64,000 nt of DNA from Bacteriovorax sp. BSW11_IV (GCF_000447755.1 NZ_AUNE01000040.1:1-64000), one strand, 5' to 3'. Positions 3,289-60,043 are shown, numbered from the stretch's first letter. Made by a program: numbers and translations. Notes: a model not told the origin generated them from the letters alone.

Positions 3289-4182
3289 TTATTGTTTTGG
3301 GCGTATCGTTTTTGCTTCTTTTATAAATTCGCGGGCCTCTTTGCCTTCAACTTCACGAAATTCAATGATTTTATTTAGCGAATAAGATTTAAAAAGATTT
3401 GTTTTTAAGCAGTGGGCGTAAAGAATATTTCCTGCAGGTAGTGGCAAGAGAGCAATGGCCTTAATTGGTCTCAGTTGTCCTCTCATGCTGCCGCCTTTGT
3501 AGCGAATGAGAAGAACACGTTGTTCTTCAACCATTTTTACAATGCCTGCAAGTTTTGTTGGTATTGATAGATCTTTGTTTTTACTAAACTCGCTCAGGTT
3601 AAATAATTTTCCAATTTGGGCATCCATTTTCTCGCCTTGAGCGCCAAGACCTTTGATGTAAATATGCAAAGATGCCCAAGCATCATCCAATGCGCGGTGA
3701 TGATTCTCTAGGGTGATGTCGAGCTCTTCGCTCAACGTTCCTAGTTTATAGTTAGGCATATCTTTTAGGGTGAGCCTAGCGAAACGACATGAACAAAAGA
3801 CGTCATTATTTTGCCAAGCTGTATTAAGATGATGGGCAGCATAAACAATGAAGCCGGCATCGAACTTGGCATTATGGGCGATAAAAGGCAGGTCGCCAGC
3901 AAATTCTCGAAATCGAGGGAGTACGTCTTCAATTTTTGGAGAAGTGGCCACCATTTCATCGGTAATTCCGTGAATATCGATAGTATTTTGCGGGATGTTA
4001 ATTCCGGGATTTATGAGCTGGTCAAATGTCTCGATACCGTCTTTTGTAACCTTTACGGCCGAGAGTTCTATGATGCGATCGAGAAGTGGTGAAAGCCCTG
4101 TAGTTTCAAGGTCTACGGCGATGACGCCCTTCGGAAAAGCTCGTAATAAAATCTCTGTTTCGGAGTGCGAAATTTCGCTCAT
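3289..4182 (-). CDS. DnaQ-like 3'-5' exonuclease (DEDDh family)
   Basis: A 297-residue exonuclease of the DNA polymerase III epsilon type. Exo I is VDLETTG with Asp24 and Glu26, Exo II is HNAKFDAG with Asp108, and Exo III-epsilon is HHRALDDA with His162 and Asp167, so all four metal/catalytic positions are intact. The catalytic domain spans ~18-180. A further ~115 residues (basic strand-rich region RYKGGSMRGQLRPI and after) resemble the C-terminal extension of some stand-alone DnaQ-like proteins rather than an epsilon tail. It is probably a repair or RNA/DNA-trimming exonuclease; whether it serves the replicative polymerase cannot be told. AAGG lies upstream of the ATG at 4182. Confidence 0.85.
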   Translation of the reverse strand: MSEISHSETEILLRAFPKGVIAVDLETTGLSPLLDRIIELSAVKVTKDGIETFDQLINPGINIPQNTIDIHGITDEMVATSPKIEDVLPRFREFAGDLPFIAHNAKFDAGFIVYAAHHLNTAWQNNDVFCSCRFARLTLKDMPNYKLGTLSEELDITLENHHRALDDAWASLHIYIKGLGAQGEKMDAQIGKLFNLSEFSKNKDLSIPTKLAGIVKMVEEQRVLLIRYKGGSMRGQLRPIKAIALLPLPAGNILYAHCLKTNLFKSYSLNKIIEFREVEGKEAREFIKEAKTIRPKQ

Positions 4183-8652: not shown

Positions 8653-8797
8653 TTCCTATAATTGTAAAGGCCCTGTCATATTAACAAAATGACAGGGCCA
8701 AGGCTCGGTCAAGGAGTTGCCTAAAATAATCTAAGCATGAATCCATTATGATGGGCTTTGAAAAAAAAGATACTCAAGTTAAACAAAATTTTGATAC

Positions 8798-10719: not shown

Positions 10720-11550
10720 TTAGAAATTTGAAATTTTTTCGACTAGCTCTGGAAAATCAATGAAAGGGTTTCTATTGTTTTGAAGCTCATAGATACCTTC
10801 ATTTCTTTCTCTTTCTTCACCGTCTACAGGATCAAGAAGGTGCCATCTCTTAAGCGTTTGTTCCTGATCTCTGGAGATGCTTCCACCGTAGCGAGTTGCG
10901 AAGTAGAAAAGTGCTCTTGCTACATTTCCTTTGTGTTCATCAGGTGGTTCAAAATTGTGTTTTGAATCAGATTTAGATGCACTACAAAGACTTCTGGCGT
11001 CGGTTTTTTCAACATCTCTAAATTCATAATTACCACGAACTGAATTTGCTTTTGATTCAGTTGGAAAGAGGTGGTGAAGATCTGCTTTTTGAACAGAGGC
11101 CTGTTTTCCACCAAAGAATTTAGATTGTGGCCATGTGTGCTCACAATTTAGAACATCTTGATTAGGGATTTGCTTTGGTCCAAGGTTTCCAATGTTTGGA
11201 GAGTCTTCGCGGTAAACGTTGTTACAATAAACGTCTTTCACGTAATAGCCCTTAGCGTCTCTTTCAAGGTGAAGTTTTCCAAAAAGTACTTCTCTGGCAC
11301 CACGGTAGCCAAGTGAAATTTGGCTATAGCACTGTCCTTTTTCACTACGGTTACAACCTAAAGTGTCTGGAGCATTAATGCGTTTTTGGTGTACTTCAGT
11401 AAGAACTTTTTGAAGTGCTCTTTTAAGCTCTTCATCTCTTAACTGATCTTGTTCAATACTCTTTTGAAAATCTTCAGGATAGTAATCAAGTCCTGCAGAA
11501 AAAGTAAATGCTGGCAGGATGATGAGGGTCAACCAGATCAGTTTTTTCAA
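10720..11550 (-). CDS. Secreted endonuclease I (EndA/NucM family), copy 1
   Basis: A 276-aa extracellular or periplasmic nonspecific nuclease. Signal peptide ~1-18 (LIWLTLIILPAFTFSAG). The beta-beta-alpha-metal motif is NCEHTWPQSKFFGG, with the catalytic His and Mg2+ environment, followed by DLHHLFPTESKANSVRGN, both diagnostic of EndA/NucM/Vvn nucleases. Several Cys residues (CNRSEKGQC, YCNNVY, NCEH, SLCSAS) could form disulfides. In a predatory cell it would degrade prey DNA in the periplasm (inference). A close paralogue follows on the same strand; each has its own terminator, and the 147 nt between them should hold a promoter for this copy. Confidence 0.93.
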   Translation of the reverse strand: MKKLIWLTLIILPAFTFSAGLDYYPEDFQKSIEQDQLRDEELKRALQKVLTEVHQKRINAPDTLGCNRSEKGQCYSQISLGYRGAREVLFGKLHLERDAKGYYVKDVYCNNVYREDSPNIGNLGPKQIPNQDVLNCEHTWPQSKFFGGKQASVQKADLHHLFPTESKANSVRGNYEFRDVEKTDARSLCSASKSDSKHNFEPPDEHKGNVARALFYFATRYGGSISRDQEQTLKRWHLLDPVDGEERERNEGIYELQNNRNPFIDFPELVEKISNF

Positions 11551-12519: not shown

Positions 12520-12655
12520 GAGAATTCCTTCTGTTCGTGTTGTTGGTGTGTGCAGGCACTATAAAATAAAAAATTAGATTTGCTAATACTTTTTTAAAGG
12601 CAAACTTATAAAAATTCTTACATTTCGAATTTTCATAGGCCTTGCTATGCGACAA

Positions 12656-13921
12656 CTAGCTCTTTGCGCCGTCCCATAGCTTGTTTAGACGCTCTTTGAT
12701 GTTTTTTTCGAGACCAATTTCTTGGGGTTCGTAAAATTTTGGCGTCCCATTTGGCGAATACTGTTGTTTCACAAAGTGGTGCGGATAGGCGTGAGGATAC
12801 TTATAAGGCGCAGTTCCTTTAGGGGGATAGTTTCTAAGATGATTTGGCACTTCTATAGTCTGCTGGTTTTGAACGTATTCCAAAGCTGCATTGATGGCAT
12901 TGTAAGCGGCATTACTCTTTACTGTAGACGCGAGATAAGTTGTTGCTTGCGCAAGATTTATGCGCGCTTCTGGCATACCAATATTTTGAACGGCCGTAAG
13001 TGCCGAAACCGCCATGGTGATTGCCTGCGGATCGGCATTACCCACATCTTCTGAAGCGAAGATCACAAGGCGTCTCGCTATAAAGACAGGATCTTCACCA
13101 CCATCAAGCATGACGGCCAACCATAAAATAGCGCTGTCAGGATCAGAGCCTCTCATGCTTTTTATAAAGGCAGAGATCACATCATAATGGCGGTCTTGAT
13201 TTTTATCGTAAGAGCGCGCGTTTTCTAAAATTAGTGGGCGCACGAATTCAAGCGTCATTTCATTGCCCGCACTATATTGAGTGACAATTTCTAAAAGATT
13301 GAGAGCATTTCTCGCATCGCCATTAGCGTGATCAGCGATAAATTCCATAGCGTCTTTAGTAATATGCAAATCAAAATCACTGGCAGCAGTGCTGATGATT
13401 TGTAAAAGATCACTTTCATCAAGTTTTTTTAGTTCAATGGCCTGAACGCGACTTAAAAGAGCGCGGTTTACTGAGCTTCTCGGATTTTCTGTTGTGGCGC
13501 CAATAAGTTTAAAATCTCCCGCCTCAACATAGGGAAGTAGAGCGTCTTGTTGGGATTTGTTAAAGCGGTGGATCTCGTCCACAAAGATAACGGCCTCTTT
13601 ACCAAACATGTCGCGCATCTCAATGGCGCTGGCGATGAGCTTTTTGAGGTCACTTACTCCGCCCAAAACGGCATTAAAGGAGTAAAACTCGCGTCCTGAG
13701 TTTTTGGCGATGATGCGGGCAAGGGTTGTTTTTCCTGTTCCTGGAGGTCCCCATAGAATTAAACTTGGGAAATTCTTCTCTTTTAAAAAGGAGTAGCGGT
13801 TAAAAATATGGGCCTGACCCACGTAATTATCAAAGGTTAGGGGTCTTGCTCTGTGGGCAAGGGGGCGCGAGCTTTCATTGTCGGCCTTATTTTGACTAAA
13901 GAGATTTAGTTCATCACTCAC
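12656..13921 (-). CDS. rarA: Replication-associated recombination protein RarA (MgsA)
   Basis: An AAA+ ATPase related to clamp-loader subunits that acts at stalled replication forks. Walker A GPPGTGKT is at ~58-65, Walker B VIFVDEIHRF, sensor 1 IGATTENP with an SSVN arginine-finger region, then a tetramerisation domain containing RSYDKNQDRHYDVISAFIKSMRGSDPD and DGGEDPVFIARR. The C-terminal NHLRNYPPKG and FVKQQYSPNGTPKFYEP are family signatures. Length (421 aa) is normal. The reading frame extends to a TTG at 13966, but AAAGGG lies 9 nt before the GTG at 13921, and starting there gives the normal short N-terminus, so I use 13921. Confidence 0.95.
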   Translation of the reverse strand: MSDELNLFSQNKADNESSRPLAHRARPLTFDNYVGQAHIFNRYSFLKEKNFPSLILWGPPGTGKTTLARIIAKNSGREFYSFNAVLGGVSDLKKLIASAIEMRDMFGKEAVIFVDEIHRFNKSQQDALLPYVEAGDFKLIGATTENPRSSVNRALLSRVQAIELKKLDESDLLQIISTAASDFDLHITKDAMEFIADHANGDARNALNLLEIVTQYSAGNEMTLEFVRPLILENARSYDKNQDRHYDVISAFIKSMRGSDPDSAILWLAVMLDGGEDPVFIARRLVIFASEDVGNADPQAITMAVSALTAVQNIGMPEARINLAQATTYLASTVKSNAAYNAINAALEYVQNQQTIEVPNHLRNYPPKGTAPYKYPHAYPHHFVKQQYSPNGTPKFYEPQEIGLEKNIKERLNKLWDGAKS

Positions 13922-53980: not shown

Positions 53981-54212
53981 TTTTTTCCTTTTCTGTGTTG
54001 TGTTTGTGGGGGCATAGATACAGGAGCAGAATTGAAGTGAACAATTCAGATTTGGTTAGGAATGTATTTGGAAAGGCCTATGCCTTTTAATGTCGGCGTT
54101 TTTACAGACACTTAAGTGAAAAGGTCGGTTATAAAGCATTAAAATCGCAGAAAACCTAATAAATTTTTATATAGGATTTATAATTTCCGATAGGATAACC
54201 AAGGGGTTATGC

Positions 54213-57200
54213 TTGTTTAGACTTCATTTTTTAATCTTTATTTCCCTCACATTTTCTGCCTGTGTCATGGACAAAGGGGCCATTAGTATTAAAAACGGTG
54301 GCGTGAGAATTTCTGGTGCAAAGACGCAAATGGATAGCGCTAGCGTTACTTCAGTTTCTATCGTCAATAATCAACTCATTATTGCTGGATCAGATTTAAA
54401 ATACGCAACCAACGTAAAGATTAAAGGTTCATCTTTTTCGGAAGAGTTTTCAATTGAGTCGATTTCCAATAATCAAATAATCGCCAATGGATTGAATAAT
54501 ATTTCATTCAAAATTGGCCAGCTCTTTGATCTGATCATCAGTGATGCCTATGGGGCGGCAACGTTTACAATTACATTTGAATTACAAGATGGGGCCGTGA
54601 GTGCCACTAAAATTGCAGATGGTGCTGTCGGTGCGAATCATCTCTCAGATATGGGAGCTGGCACAGGACAAGTCATGCAATGGAATGGCAGCACATGGGT
54701 ACCAACTGATTTATCAGGACTTGTTTATCTTGGTTCATGGGATGCCACTCAAATTGGCGTCGGCCCAGATGCAGGGCCTGCATCTGTTGCGGGTGAGTAT
54801 TATGTGGTTTCAAACCCTGGAACTATCGATGTCGACGGAATCAGTTCCTGGGCCGCGGGCGATTGGGTTGTTTGGAATGGAGTTAATTGGGATAAGATTG
54901 ATAACTCAACAGGAGTAACTTCATTTAATGGGAGAGTCGGTCCCGTTGTTCCAATTATTGGTGATTATAATCTTGCACAACTTGGCGATGTGGATACGAC
55001 AGGTATTGGTGCAGGTAAAATTTTAAAATATGATGGATCAAAATGGGTTATATCCGATGATCTATCAAGTGGTGGTGCAGGCTCTGTTTCTTCTTCTGAA
55101 ATTCAAGATGGAACAATTACTAATGCGGATATCAATGCCACTGCGGGAATTGATCAATCAAAAATTCTAGGGCTCTCTACTTCACTTGCTTCAAAACTAG
55201 ATCTTGCTGGTGGTGTGATGACTGGCGCTCTGGATATGGGGACAAATAATATTGGAAATGTTGGTACTGTGAATGGTGTTGATATTTCAACTTTAAATAC
55301 GCAAGTAGGAACTAACACTTCAAATATATCAACAAACGCAGGGGATATTCTCTCTTTGCAAACAAGTGTGACTACGAACTCTTCAAGTATTTCGGCAAAT
55401 ACCACGGCCATCGCATCTAAATTTAATTCGGCCGATATCGATACTGACATCGCGTTGAGTGCTGACAGTGATGCTAAAGTTCCATCTCAAAAGGCCATTA
55501 AAAGTTATGTAGATAGTGCCGTGACGGGTTTAGGGGCCACAGATTTTTTGAAAAAAGATGGAACAGTTGTCATGACAGGGGCCCTCGATACTTCAACTTT
55601 TGGTATAAAATTAAAAGACGGCGATACTAATTACGTCACTTTGAAAGCTAATGCGGCGATGGGGAGTGATCTCAGCTTTATTCTTCCTGCAAATAATGGA
55701 ACAAGTGGATTTGTCCTTTCTACTGATGGGGCCGGAAACTTATCTTGGATTGCTCCAACAACAGGAAGCGTGACAAACGTTGCTGTTACTGCTCCTTTGC
55801 AGTCCAGTGGTGGGGCCACTCCAAACTTATCGATCACACAATCTTCTAATTCTACGAACGGATATTTATCAAGTACAGATTGGAATACTTTCAATAATAA
55901 AGTTTCTACTTCGCGTACGATTAATTCAAAACCTCTTTCTGCTGATATCACTTTAGTCACAAGTGATATTGCTGAAGGTACAAATTTATACTTCACTGAT
56001 GCAAGAGCGAAGAGTGCGGCCGTTGTAAATTCCACAGCAGGAAGTGAAGCGGATCAAGCACCGAGTGTGGCGGCGATCAAAACATATGTAGATGCAGCAG
56101 ATGCGAATAAAGTTGATAAGAGTACAACGGTCAATGGTAAGGCCTTGTCTTCTAATATCTCTCTGGTAACGACAGATATTGCTGAGGGGACAAATCTTTA
56201 TTTTACAGATGCAAGAGCTAAGAGTGCGGCAGTTATTAATTCAACTGCAGGATCTGAAACCGATAGATCTCCTTCTGTGAGCGCAATTAAAACCTATGTG
56301 ACAAACTCAATAGACGCCAACGGTAAATGGATTAAAAATGCCAGCGATATTTATTTTAATACTGGTAATGTAGGAGTTGGAACAACAACACCTGCTGCAA
56401 AATTAGAAGTTCAGGGTGCTACTGATCCAGTTGCTATTCGTCTTACAGAAACCACTGGAGATGATTCGATTTGGGAATTTAGGGCCTACAATGTTGGGCT
56501 TGGGGTTAATGATAATCAATTTTCAATCTGGGGTGGGGTTGCTTCAGGTACTTTAACTGATAGGCTTGTTATTGGTAAAACAGGAAACGTCGGTATCGGT
56601 TCTTTAAATCCGCAATATCAACTTCACGTCCAAAATAGTGCCGGGGCCTCTTCCATTGCAGTTGATTCCACGAGTGCGACAACACCTTCATATAAGTTTT
56701 TAAAAGACAGTGTGCTAAAGTGGAATATCTACACTGGAGCAACAGATTCTCTGCACTTTTATAATGGTACGGGCAATATAATGACTTTTTCTAATTTGGC
56801 CCCTGCCAATTCTCTTTTCTTGTCAGATACGGGAAAGGTGGGAATTGGAACTTCATCTCCACGTGACAAACTCACTGTATTTGATACAAGTGTCGCCACT
56901 CTTACAATCACAGGTGATAGTGATCTCGATGTTGCAAATTTAAATCTATTTGAACTTGGAACATCTGGAAGTGAAAGTGGTTTTCAATTTCAATTTAATG
57001 GAGACAATACTTCAAATGCTCTCTTACTAAACTCCTTTGTTGCTGGCGCCGGTACAACGGTTATGAAAATAAATCGTGATAATGGTTATGTCGGTATTGG
57101 TTCTGCTACGGCATCTCAAAAACTTGATATCGATAATGGTCACATTGAAACCTCATCGGGCTATGGAATAGGGTATGCTTTTGGGACGGCCAGTGAGCAT

Positions 57201-58196
57201 ACCATTTATCCATACACCACAGGAATCAATGCTATGGGTGGTTATGGGGCCACAGCTCCTTATGATAATGGTATTCTTATTAAATCGGATGAAGCAATTG
57301 CAATTGCGGAGACTGATGCCAATGAAGTTGTTGGATACTTTGACGTCAATGCCAAGAAAATGATGTGGAATGGAGGACTCGTTCTTGGGGGAACAACTAC
57401 TCAGGAGCGGATCAATATCAATGACAATCTTTTCATTCATAATGGTGGAGATGATGTTTACGGCTTTCGCTATATCCCAAGTTTGGCGAAAACATCTTCA
57501 ACTGTTGCCAATATCTATCCAGCAGAACTTCGTCATAGTCCAGTGAGTGGAATTTTTTCAATTGGAATTGATAGCACTCAAAGAAGTACTGGTGATACGG
57601 GAACAATCAATAAAATTTTAAATATCACTAAAGATCAACGAGTGGGAATTAATACATCTGCACCTGCGCATGCTCTTCATGTTGTTGGTACAGCTGGACT
57701 TTCAACAGGAACGGCATGGACAAATACTTCCGATATTCGCTTGAAAGATATTCAAGGGGATTATGAATACGGGCTAAAAGAAATTGAAAAACTTCATACT
57801 GTCCGCTTCAATTACAAAGAGGGTAATGCTCTGGGACTTCCGAGTGATAAAAATATTATTGGTTTTATTGCCCAAGAAGTTCAGCAGGTCATTCCAGAGG
57901 CCGTTGTTGAAAGAGAGGATGGCTATTTAGAACTAAATGTTGATCCCATTCATTGGGCCGCAATTAATGCCATTCAAGAGCTTAATCACAAGCTAAAAGA
58001 GAACACCCTAAAATTTGATATGATGAGAATTGGCATTGTTGAAGAAAACTCTAGAAAGATCGCTTCTCTGGAAGTGGAGAATGAGGCCATGAAAGCGCAG
58101 CTTCAAGCGCTCAAAGAGCAAAATCAGAATCTACAAAAGAGGCTTCAATCAATTGAAGAAAAGATGGATTTGATCCTTGAAAAATCAAACCCTTAA
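54213..58196 (+). CDS. Giant lipoprotein with tail-fibre modules and S74 chaperone
   Basis: A 1327-aa exported lipoprotein; signal LTFSAC gives Cys17. The body is Ser/Thr/Asn/Gly-rich with fibre-like modules: collagen-free beta segments, two 70-residue repeats (~570-696), and glycine motifs VGIGT/VGIGS. The C-terminus is a Peptidase_S74 intramolecular chaperone: TSDIRLKD has Ser1173 and Lys1178 of the self-cleaving dyad, followed by NIIGFIAQEVQQVIPEAV and a coiled coil (~1275-1325). S74 domains trimerise phage tail spikes, and similar chimeric fibre proteins occur in Bdellovibrio. The start is TTG with AAGGGG upstream. No other phage genes are near. Confidence 0.88.
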   Translation: MFRLHFLIFISLTFSACVMDKGAISIKNGGVRISGAKTQMDSASVTSVSIVNNQLIIAGSDLKYATNVKIKGSSFSEEFSIESISNNQIIANGLNNISFKIGQLFDLIISDAYGAATFTITFELQDGAVSATKIADGAVGANHLSDMGAGTGQVMQWNGSTWVPTDLSGLVYLGSWDATQIGVGPDAGPASVAGEYYVVSNPGTIDVDGISSWAAGDWVVWNGVNWDKIDNSTGVTSFNGRVGPVVPIIGDYNLAQLGDVDTTGIGAGKILKYDGSKWVISDDLSSGGAGSVSSSEIQDGTITNADINATAGIDQSKILGLSTSLASKLDLAGGVMTGALDMGTNNIGNVGTVNGVDISTLNTQVGTNTSNISTNAGDILSLQTSVTTNSSSISANTTAIASKFNSADIDTDIALSADSDAKVPSQKAIKSYVDSAVTGLGATDFLKKDGTVVMTGALDTSTFGIKLKDGDTNYVTLKANAAMGSDLSFILPANNGTSGFVLSTDGAGNLSWIAPTTGSVTNVAVTAPLQSSGGATPNLSITQSSNSTNGYLSSTDWNTFNNKVSTSRTINSKPLSADITLVTSDIAEGTNLYFTDARAKSAAVVNSTAGSEADQAPSVAAIKTYVDAADANKVDKSTTVNGKALSSNISLVTTDIAEGTNLYFTDARAKSAAVINSTAGSETDRSPSVSAIKTYVTNSIDANGKWIKNASDIYFNTGNVGVGTTTPAAKLEVQGATDPVAIRLTETTGDDSIWEFRAYNVGLGVNDNQFSIWGGVASGTLTDRLVIGKTGNVGIGSLNPQYQLHVQNSAGASSIAVDSTSATTPSYKFLKDSVLKWNIYTGATDSLHFYNGTGNIMTFSNLAPANSLFLSDTGKVGIGTSSPRDKLTVFDTSVATLTITGDSDLDVANLNLFELGTSGSESGFQFQFNGDNTSNALLLNSFVAGAGTTVMKINRDNGYVGIGSATASQKLDIDNGHIETSSGYGIGYAFGTASEHTIYPYTTGINAMGGYGATAPYDNGILIKSDEAIAIAETDANEVVGYFDVNAKKMMWNGGLVLGGTTTQERININDNLFIHNGGDDVYGFRYIPSLAKTSSTVANIYPAELRHSPVSGIFSIGIDSTQRSTGDTGTINKILNITKDQRVGINTSAPAHALHVVGTAGLSTGTAWTNTSDIRLKDIQGDYEYGLKEIEKLHTVRFNYKEGNALGLPSDKNIIGFIAQEVQQVIPEAVVEREDGYLELNVDPIHWAAINAIQELNHKLKENTLKFDMMRIGIVEENSRKIASLEVENEAMKAQLQALKEQNQNLQKRLQSIEEKMDLILEKSNP
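55920..56300 (+). repeat. Two tandem 70-aa fibre repeats
   Basis: Two in-frame copies 210 nt apart, the core being SDIAEGTNLYFTDARAKSAA at residues ~584-603 and TDIAEGTNLYFTDARAKSAA at ~654-673. About 45 of 57 aligned residues agree (by eye). Each copy ends SVxAIKTYV. The repeated module is of a type seen in phage tail-fibre shafts. Confidence 0.85.
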
Positions 58197-58294: not shown

Positions 58295-60043
58295 ATGAAG
58301 GCAGTACTTGTAGGGTGGTTCACCTTAATTATATCTCTTTCTACTTTGTCCCAAGAATACTTGCTGGTTCATCGCTATCCAAATATGAATGCAGGACTGT
58401 TCTTTAAACAAGACCGCTCTGTGCAAAGAGAAGAATCCGAATTATTTATTGTTGAAAATATGAAGCGCGTAATTGCCTTGAAATCTTATCGTGTCGTTTC
58501 TAAGGCCGATGATCTTTATAACTACCTTCTTGATTCAACATATTCTCATGATGTCTATAAAACGAATCTTACAAAGAAAGAAGTTTTTGATTTTACGAAG
58601 AGAATTAAAAACAGTGGCTATAATCATATTCTAACGATGCTTGAAAGAACTATTGGTCGTTCTCGTTTTCATTCGTTTGATGATTCAAAAAAAGAATTTG
58701 AAGATAATTTTAATAGATTCAAATTCTCTCCTGAAAGTCTTGAGGACCTTCTCGATTATGCCAATATTTTAGTGCCAAACAAGTACTTTTCTGAAAAATT
58801 TTTTGATGTTCATTTTTGTAAACGTTACGAATGCGCTAGCGACAAAATGGAAATTCTCGATGAGGACGTCGATTACTTAATAAACTCTCTTGTAAAAGTC
58901 TCTAATGAAATCACTAATTCAAAGCAAGATTATCTCAATCAAGGTCAAAAAGAGGCCCTTATTCATTTTGCTGAAAAGCTAATCGATTATGAGAAAACTT
59001 TTTTGGCCCTTGGAAAACCTGATCGTCTTAAGAAGATGTGGCAAAAATTCTTTGCTAATCTTCCAGATGATTACATTATTTTTAGAAATCTAGAAGAGGG
59101 CTCACTTGTTAATAATCCTTCTTATGGTTGGCTCTCAAAAGTTGTAAAAAAATATAAATCTCTTATGAAACCTGAAGATTATAAGAGGCTTTCTTCAAAT
59201 ATTGATTCAGACTTCGATCATTTAGGTAATGGCCTAAGTTCTGTACTTGTTAATTTCTTAGGACGTGTTTTTAAAAAGCGCGATTGGGTTCCTTCATTAA
59301 GATTGGCCACAAACTTTAGGGAGAATTATCTCTTTGAAAATGTGGACTCTGTTATCGATCAACTTCTCGCGAAAGATGGTATGAAGCCTGGGGATATTAT
59401 TCTCGAAAAAGATCGCAAGGCCAATACGGATCTCCTCATTCCAGGCTACTGGGTTCATGCTTCGATTTACCTTGGTACAATTAAAGATTTCAAAAAAATG
59501 GGTGTATGGGATCATCCAAGATTCAAAGAAATGAGAAAACAAATTTTGAAATATAATAATCAGTGGCGTGAAAAGCTCGATGGTGAATATAAGAACACCA
59601 GAGACTTTGAAGATGTGCCATGGTTTTCTGAATCAGATCGTCCAGGTGTCGGAGTTCATCCTTTAAATAAATTTTTACAAACAGATGGGATGGCCGTCAT
59701 TAGAGTCAATCGTGCTAAGGATAATGAGGCCTACGTTAAAAATATACTTTTCAAAAGTGCGGACTACTTAGGTCTTCCTTACGATTATACTCACAATATC
59801 AAAAATAACAGAGCGATGACTTGTTCCAAATATGTTCTAAAGGTTTTTGATGATATCACTTTCAATACATCCGATAACGGCCCATATAGAACAGTTTCTC
59901 CTGATCAAATTGGTCAGGTAGTGGAAAGTGGTCAAGCAAGTCTTGTGATGTTTATGGAAGCAGAGAATGAGGGAAAACTCATATACGCTGCAAGTCAAAA
60001 GGACGAGAACGCTTATCAAGTCTATTTAAATAACTTATACTAG
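58295..60043 (+). CDS. Secreted YiiX-like permuted NlpC/P60 hydrolase
   Basis: A 582-aa protein with signal peptide (GWFTLIISLSTLSQ). The C-terminal ~200 residues carry the permuted papain-like fold: GDIILEKDRKA, then GYWVHASIYLG with the conserved His, and AMTCSKYVLKVFDD with the candidate catalytic Cys, the order seen in YiiX/YaeF-like enzymes. The N-terminal ~370 residues are helical and unassigned. It may cleave amide bonds in lipids, peptides or peptidoglycan. RBS GGGGGGA precedes the ATG. It follows the S74 lipoprotein by 98 nt and is probably on a related transcript. Confidence 0.78.
   Translation: MKAVLVGWFTLIISLSTLSQEYLLVHRYPNMNAGLFFKQDRSVQREESELFIVENMKRVIALKSYRVVSKADDLYNYLLDSTYSHDVYKTNLTKKEVFDFTKRIKNSGYNHILTMLERTIGRSRFHSFDDSKKEFEDNFNRFKFSPESLEDLLDYANILVPNKYFSEKFFDVHFCKRYECASDKMEILDEDVDYLINSLVKVSNEITNSKQDYLNQGQKEALIHFAEKLIDYEKTFLALGKPDRLKKMWQKFFANLPDDYIIFRNLEEGSLVNNPSYGWLSKVVKKYKSLMKPEDYKRLSSNIDSDFDHLGNGLSSVLVNFLGRVFKKRDWVPSLRLATNFRENYLFENVDSVIDQLLAKDGMKPGDIILEKDRKANTDLLIPGYWVHASIYLGTIKDFKKMGVWDHPRFKEMRKQILKYNNQWREKLDGEYKNTRDFEDVPWFSESDRPGVGVHPLNKFLQTDGMAVIRVNRAKDNEAYVKNILFKSADYLGLPYDYTHNIKNNRAMTCSKYVLKVFDDITFNTSDNGPYRTVSPDQIGQVVESGQASLVMFMEAENEGKLIYAASQKDENAYQVYLNNLY

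Follow-up and report, generated by a model that had tools for sequence, protein, structure and literature searches.

Within the window (the whole stretch of Bacteriovorax sp. BSW11_IV DNA that was analysed, 64,000 nt; NZ_AUNE01000040.1:1-64000) an intact reading frame at 54213..58196 on the plus strand, stop codon included, encodes a 1327 aa protein that is probably a lipid-anchored, self-processed trimeric fibre of the outer membrane that binds prey. The protein looks like a lipid-anchored relative of the MAT fibres of Bdellovibrio bacteriovorus and apparently represents a second class of these fibres, one with an anchor of its own.

The frame opens with a TTG codon, 6 nt downstream of a Shine-Dalgarno-like AAGGGG recognised by eye (54201..54206, plus strand). 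This start is supported by the closest paralogue of the fibre gene, which has GTG at the aligned position followed by a similar signal sequence. Residues 1-16 (MFRLHFLIFISLTFSA; 54213..54260, plus strand) constitute a putative lipoprotein signal peptide and are followed by C17VMDKG, with Cys17 (54261..54263, plus strand) predicted to be lipidated and to become the N-terminal residue of the mature chain. Phe at position -3 of the lipobox, FSA-C17, is unusual and non-canonical; nonetheless, the cysteine is invariant in the alignment and retained in every relative with the same N-terminus. The lipobox reported in the first-pass annotation, which was made from the sequence alone, was thus confirmed, and the signal peptide ending in this cysteine predicts a bacterial lipoprotein. 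Following Cys17, several relatives share C-[VI]-x-D-[KR]-G, a candidate conserved sorting signal.

Peptidase_S74 (PF13884) was the only Pfam family above cut-off in the fibre, matching residues 1173-1231 with E=1.6e-12 and 47.9 bits versus a cut-off of 22. This putative chaperone and autoprotease core (57729..57905, plus strand) starts with SDIRLK at residues 1173-1178, which supplies the complete dyad of Ser1173 (57729-57731) and Lys1178 (57744-57746, both plus strand) that had been proposed at the outset, and which conforms to the SDxxxK of the MAT S74 subgroup. From the sequence, a cut at Ser1173 would leave a C-terminal piece of 155 aa. A coiled-coil-like chaperone tail is predicted at residues about 1255-1320 (57975..58172, plus strand) from the sequence and weak coiled-coil family matches; the NCBIfam search yielded one weak coiled-coil match and nothing else.

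The remaining modules, all on the plus strand, precede the S74 core in a defined order. An IPT/TIG-like anchor module, termed type A, occupies residues 41-127 (54333..54593), as delimited by profile searches and by fold comparison with a low-confidence model. It is followed by a phage-like stem at residues 131-260 (54603..54992; ~42% identity to Rhizobium phage minor tail proteins), a shaft at residues 261-741 (54993..56435) in common with the own-genome paralogue C52:182k, and a distal fibre or tip region at residues 750-1130 (56460..57602) with low or no similarity to paralogues. The fibre repeats noted initially were substantiated by PHROGs tail-fibre families matching much of the second half and by four copies of the relaxed capping-loop motif VG[VI][GN]xxxPxxxL, at residues 720 (VGVGTTTPAAKL; 56370..56405), 793 (VGIGSLNPQYQL; 56589..56624), 876 (VGIGTSSPRDKL; 56838..56873) and 1144 (VGINTSAPAHAL; 57642..57677), the last corresponding in position to the distal cap in the Bd3182 tip. 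The published MAT capping loop reads V-G-[GN]-aromatic-x-x-P-x-x-x-L; the relaxed form applied here is also found in Bd3182 itself.

Identity profiles against paralogues characterise the fibre gene, at the sequence level, as a mosaic of a paralogue-shared anchor and shaft, a private tip and a Bd3182-type chaperone. C52:182k matches residues 2-741 at 71% identity, a single 50-residue bin reaching 96%; beyond this segment, identity does not exceed 36%. Residues 750-1130 are largely private to the window fibre, and residues 1151-1250 share 74-78% identity with the paralogue C33:39k and 72-76% with proteins of B. bacteriovorus HD100. DNA identity of the gene to its paralogues reaches a maximum of about 78%, implying that the module exchanges are old; recent gene conversion is ruled out on the same grounds.

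In HD100, 21 MAT fibres have been described, 13 of them with S74, and all carry a conserved beta-rich domain of ~130 aa directly after the signal peptide (Caulton et al. 2024, PMC10769870). For Bd3182, self-cleavage at S782 has been demonstrated and the tip structure solved, sister MATs were located at the surface, and deletion of single MATs caused weak predation defects or none, while the mode of attachment to the predator surface was left open (PMC10769870). The genome taken as that of HD100 for comparison carries the Bd3182 segment at 100% and yielded exactly 13 S74 proteins. The best PDB match of the window fibre was the Bd3182 tip (8ojn, 1.1e-7), and 63 of the 96 residues from 1170 to 1265, the S74 region, are identical to Bd3182 (66%). 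The fibre further shares with Bd3182 and the MAT S74 subgroup a signal peptide, a long phage-like fibre, capping loops, a C-terminal S74 domain with SDxxxK and exchange of tips upon shared shafts, and its paralogue identity profile follows the MAT mosaic plan of one conserved and one diversified end. However, the ~130-aa N-terminal MAT domain is absent, and a lipobox cysteine with the IPT/TIG-like module stands in its place, whereas in the HD100 S74 MATs the signal peptide is of the ordinary type. Since, at the sequence level, the defining N-terminal domain is missing and another anchor module is present, the fibre is not of the same kind as the published MATs. The likeness to Bdellovibrio fibres suggested in the first-pass annotation therefore holds for the Bd3182-like S74 end but not for the N-terminus, which matches a different profile.

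The common overall plan, capping loops and S74 domain, and the prediction of a small beta domain at both N-termini, would also be expected of an ordinary MAT that kept the same anchor while its N-terminal domain diverged past recognition, a reading that we regard as unlikely. Arguing against it, a type A profile seeded from window residues 41-127 and a type B profile seeded from one HD100 MAT N-terminus selected disjoint ORF sets even when distant members were included, and never met in one ORF. Every HD100 S74 MAT that was recovered whole at its N-terminus, Bd3182 included, was type B, while the window fibre is type A and its ORF gave no match to the type B profile. Profile-profile comparison with hhalign assigned the two a probability of 0.9%. 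Moreover, the lipobox always precedes type A and never type B: a hydrophobic stretch, a small residue and a cysteine lie ahead of the module in all type A ORFs (two automatic rules caught 26/35 and 31/35 and the remainder pass by eye, some loci being duplicates), whereas type B ORFs have ordinary signal peptides, the sole automatic lipobox match among 42 being located within a longer signal sequence. Both types also coexist in the host genome. Altogether, it is well supported by sequence that type A and type B are different anchors.

Fold comparison suggests that they differ in structure as well. The type A model gave its best Z of 7.7 to a plexin IPT domain (75 residues, rmsd 2.8), with a pLDDT of 71-83 in the core only and a mean of 55 over the N-terminal monomer model; plexin, NFAT and Bacteroides glycan-binding IPT proteins (6e57, 3orj) were near the top of its list. 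The type B model retrieved GH2-type Ig-like domains, and for both models the matches were middling, with no Z over 8. Pfam TIG (PF01833) matched 2 of 18 type A members (best E=0.067). The type A profile matched twice in one relative, L032, the second match lying near the tip at residues 715-805 of the 1110-aa ORF (E=1.8e-12), and weaker second matches were obtained in L031 and L033.

The type A anchor was detected in 57 of 369 genomes of the phylum: 48 of the 129 Bacteriovoracaceae genomes, none in Bdellovibrionaceae and few elsewhere. Type B was present in 146 genomes of the phylum, of which 61 belong to Bdellovibrionaceae and 29 to Bacteriovoracaceae; 14 Bacteriovoracaceae genomes have both. 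Both are also found in the host genome (3.65 Mb, 98% complete), which encodes ten S74 proteins and in which the lipid-anchored type A N-terminus occurs in seven proteins. The fibre is thus a large lipid-anchored example as originally described, but not a single one. The one other genome of the host genus that was searched has type B and no type A, which indicates turnover of the set. We infer that the host belongs to Bacteriovoracaceae in the GTDB sense, a family also carrying Halobacteriovorax/Halobacteriovoraceae records, and not to the family of Bdellovibrio. An HMG-CoA reductase was found in the host genome and a search for DXP reductoisomerase gave no match, a combination that agrees, suggestively only, with a predator-enriched isoprenoid pathway. 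As the mevalonate pathway is enriched among predators yet a poor marker (PMC4646340), the predatory lifestyle of the host is deduced from its family.

By analogy with Bd3182 and other S74 proteins, the following course of events can be proposed. Upon export the signal peptide would be removed and Cys17 would receive a lipid that tethers the N-terminus to the outer membrane, and the IPT/TIG-like module and the phage-derived stem would raise a trimeric beta shaft off the cell. The C-terminal S74 domain would nucleate folding of the trimer and then cut at Ser1173, freeing the 155-aa chaperone and exposing the distal tip for binding to a surface, with glycans of the prey envelope as the most probable target; paralogues would swap tips upon a common anchor and shaft. 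Outward orientation is part of this analogy, and the lipid anchor may instead face the periplasm. Catalytic Ser/Lys and a C-terminal chaperone are likewise features of the S74 proteins of phages (K1F endosialidase, T5 L-shaped fibre) and of MYRF, but these are attached to the virion or the ER membrane, unlike the cellular lipoprotein predicted here.

The phage-like parts raise the question of whether the gene could be a recently captured prophage tail fibre with a lipobox in front by chance. As this would require, the stem matches phage proteins, and for the S74 end there are matches in Thermus and Synechococcus phage tail fibres, but the anchor module (residues 41-127) had no match among phage proteins, the lipobox and the module are kept together in dozens of genomes of the family, and in composition the gene differs little from the surrounding DNA. 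Furthermore, Pfam detected no phage family in ten neighbour ORFs between 49.9 and 63.9 kb, in line with the initial statement that other phage genes are lacking; the families recognised were thymidine kinase, UPRTase, C92 peptidase, phosphoribosyltransferase, GHMP kinase and Na/Ca exchanger, the other ORFs having unknown families or none. We therefore consider such a capture highly improbable. A lipid-anchored fibre directed to surfaces, matrix or sister cells, or displaying a glycan-degrading tip, and thus not engaged in prey recognition, deserves more weight, even if we judge it rather doubtful. Phage-like stems and S74 domains also occur in Bacteroidota and other bacteria, type A is patchy within Bacteriovoracaceae, and the Bacteroides glycan-binding IPT proteins among the anchor fold matches would fit such a function. 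Bacteroides IPT/TIG glycan-binding proteins such as SGBP-B (6e57) are lipoproteins and resemble the window protein in an IPT/TIG-like fold near the N-terminus, but they have neither fibre nor S74, and the fold match is middling (Z about 6-8, low-confidence model). Against this alternative, the nearest characterised relatives are predator surface fibres, and the big, diversified paralogue sets look like a recognition repertoire. On balance, the prey-binding fibre remains our preferred reading. The interpretation of the locus as a defence system was rejected, PADLOC giving no match. Just 3' of the fibre gene, at 58295-60043, the window encodes a 582-aa protein that appears to have a signal peptide and contains a C92 (YiiX-like) amidase domain.

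Some type A relatives that lack S74 carry C-type-lectin-like tips (PF03781, matched at 6.6e-11 in L035 and more weakly in L031 and L032) and have nearby a reverse transcriptase in which YMDD and IGNxTSQ motifs are recognisable. At three such loci, L035, L205 and L207, the fibre gene terminates at its 3' end in a variable repeat (VR), the template (TR) of which lies just after the transcriptase (RT). The L035 element, from a Bacteriovoracaceae MAG, targets the gene of a 1769-aa lipid-anchored fibre (VR 11145-11271, RT 12573-13541, TR 13611-13737), and 14/14 differences between VR and TR fall on template adenines. The same applies to 15/15 differences in the template/variable pair of L205 (4992-5118 and 7432-7558) and 18/18 in that of L207 (4997-5104 and 7569-7676), two systems that act on different type A fibre genes of one genome, G040. 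The naive chance of adenine-only differences at these three loci is about 1e-11 or less. L208, a fourth locus beside a type A fibre (the same gene as L031) and on the reverse strand, has a more diverged pair with mostly adenine differences and a few others (in reverse-complement numbering, VR lies near 3827-3945 and TR near 8699). L206 and L209 likewise combine a type A fibre with the same kind of RT downstream, but at the thresholds used no template repeat was found there. Related enzymes were detected in 11 of 129 Bacteriovoracaceae genomes. As judged from these repeats, loci of the L035 type, which lie outside the window, are diversity-generating retroelements aimed at the tip of a lipid-anchored fibre; in the window itself a search for a YxDD ORF found none.

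It is conceivable, at about even odds, that Bacteriovoracaceae have evolved a second fibre platform, composed of lipobox and IPT/TIG-like module, which carries interchangeable tips, either self-cleaving S74 tips like that of the window fibre or, in relatives, retroelement-hypermutated lectin-like tips, and whose repertoire is changed by directed mutation. A literature search found no description of MATs that are lipoproteins, or of retroelements, for these predators, many subscription papers and the MAT supplementary strain tables being outside its reach. The interest of our data rests more upon the second anchor class and the retroelement-linked relatives than upon the single window gene. A comparable fibre with a self-explanatory predicted lipid anchor makes surface attachment testable through one cysteine change. 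Moreover, the anchor, like the tip, appears to be exchangeable, and the two main predator families appear to lean upon different anchors. Directed hypermutation is how a Bordetella phage diversifies Mtd, and, in view of the retroelement-linked relatives, predatory bacteria might vary their recognition tips in the same manner.

Several further loci were noted in the course of these searches. Contig C47 of the host genome contains two adjacent RVT_1 reverse transcriptase ORFs (G000:C47:51808-53713, L186), which showed no relation to the L035 enzyme at 1e-20. Adenine-specific VR/TR pairs are also present at L212, L214, L215 and L219, where the available target ORF sequence matches neither type A nor type B. 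In the genome of L209 the reverse transcriptase frame bears a TGA stop. Finally, a type A fibre of genome G014 (L118:1977-7427) contains one in-frame stop, which divides it into an 807-aa N-terminal ORF and a 1009-aa S74-bearing ORF.
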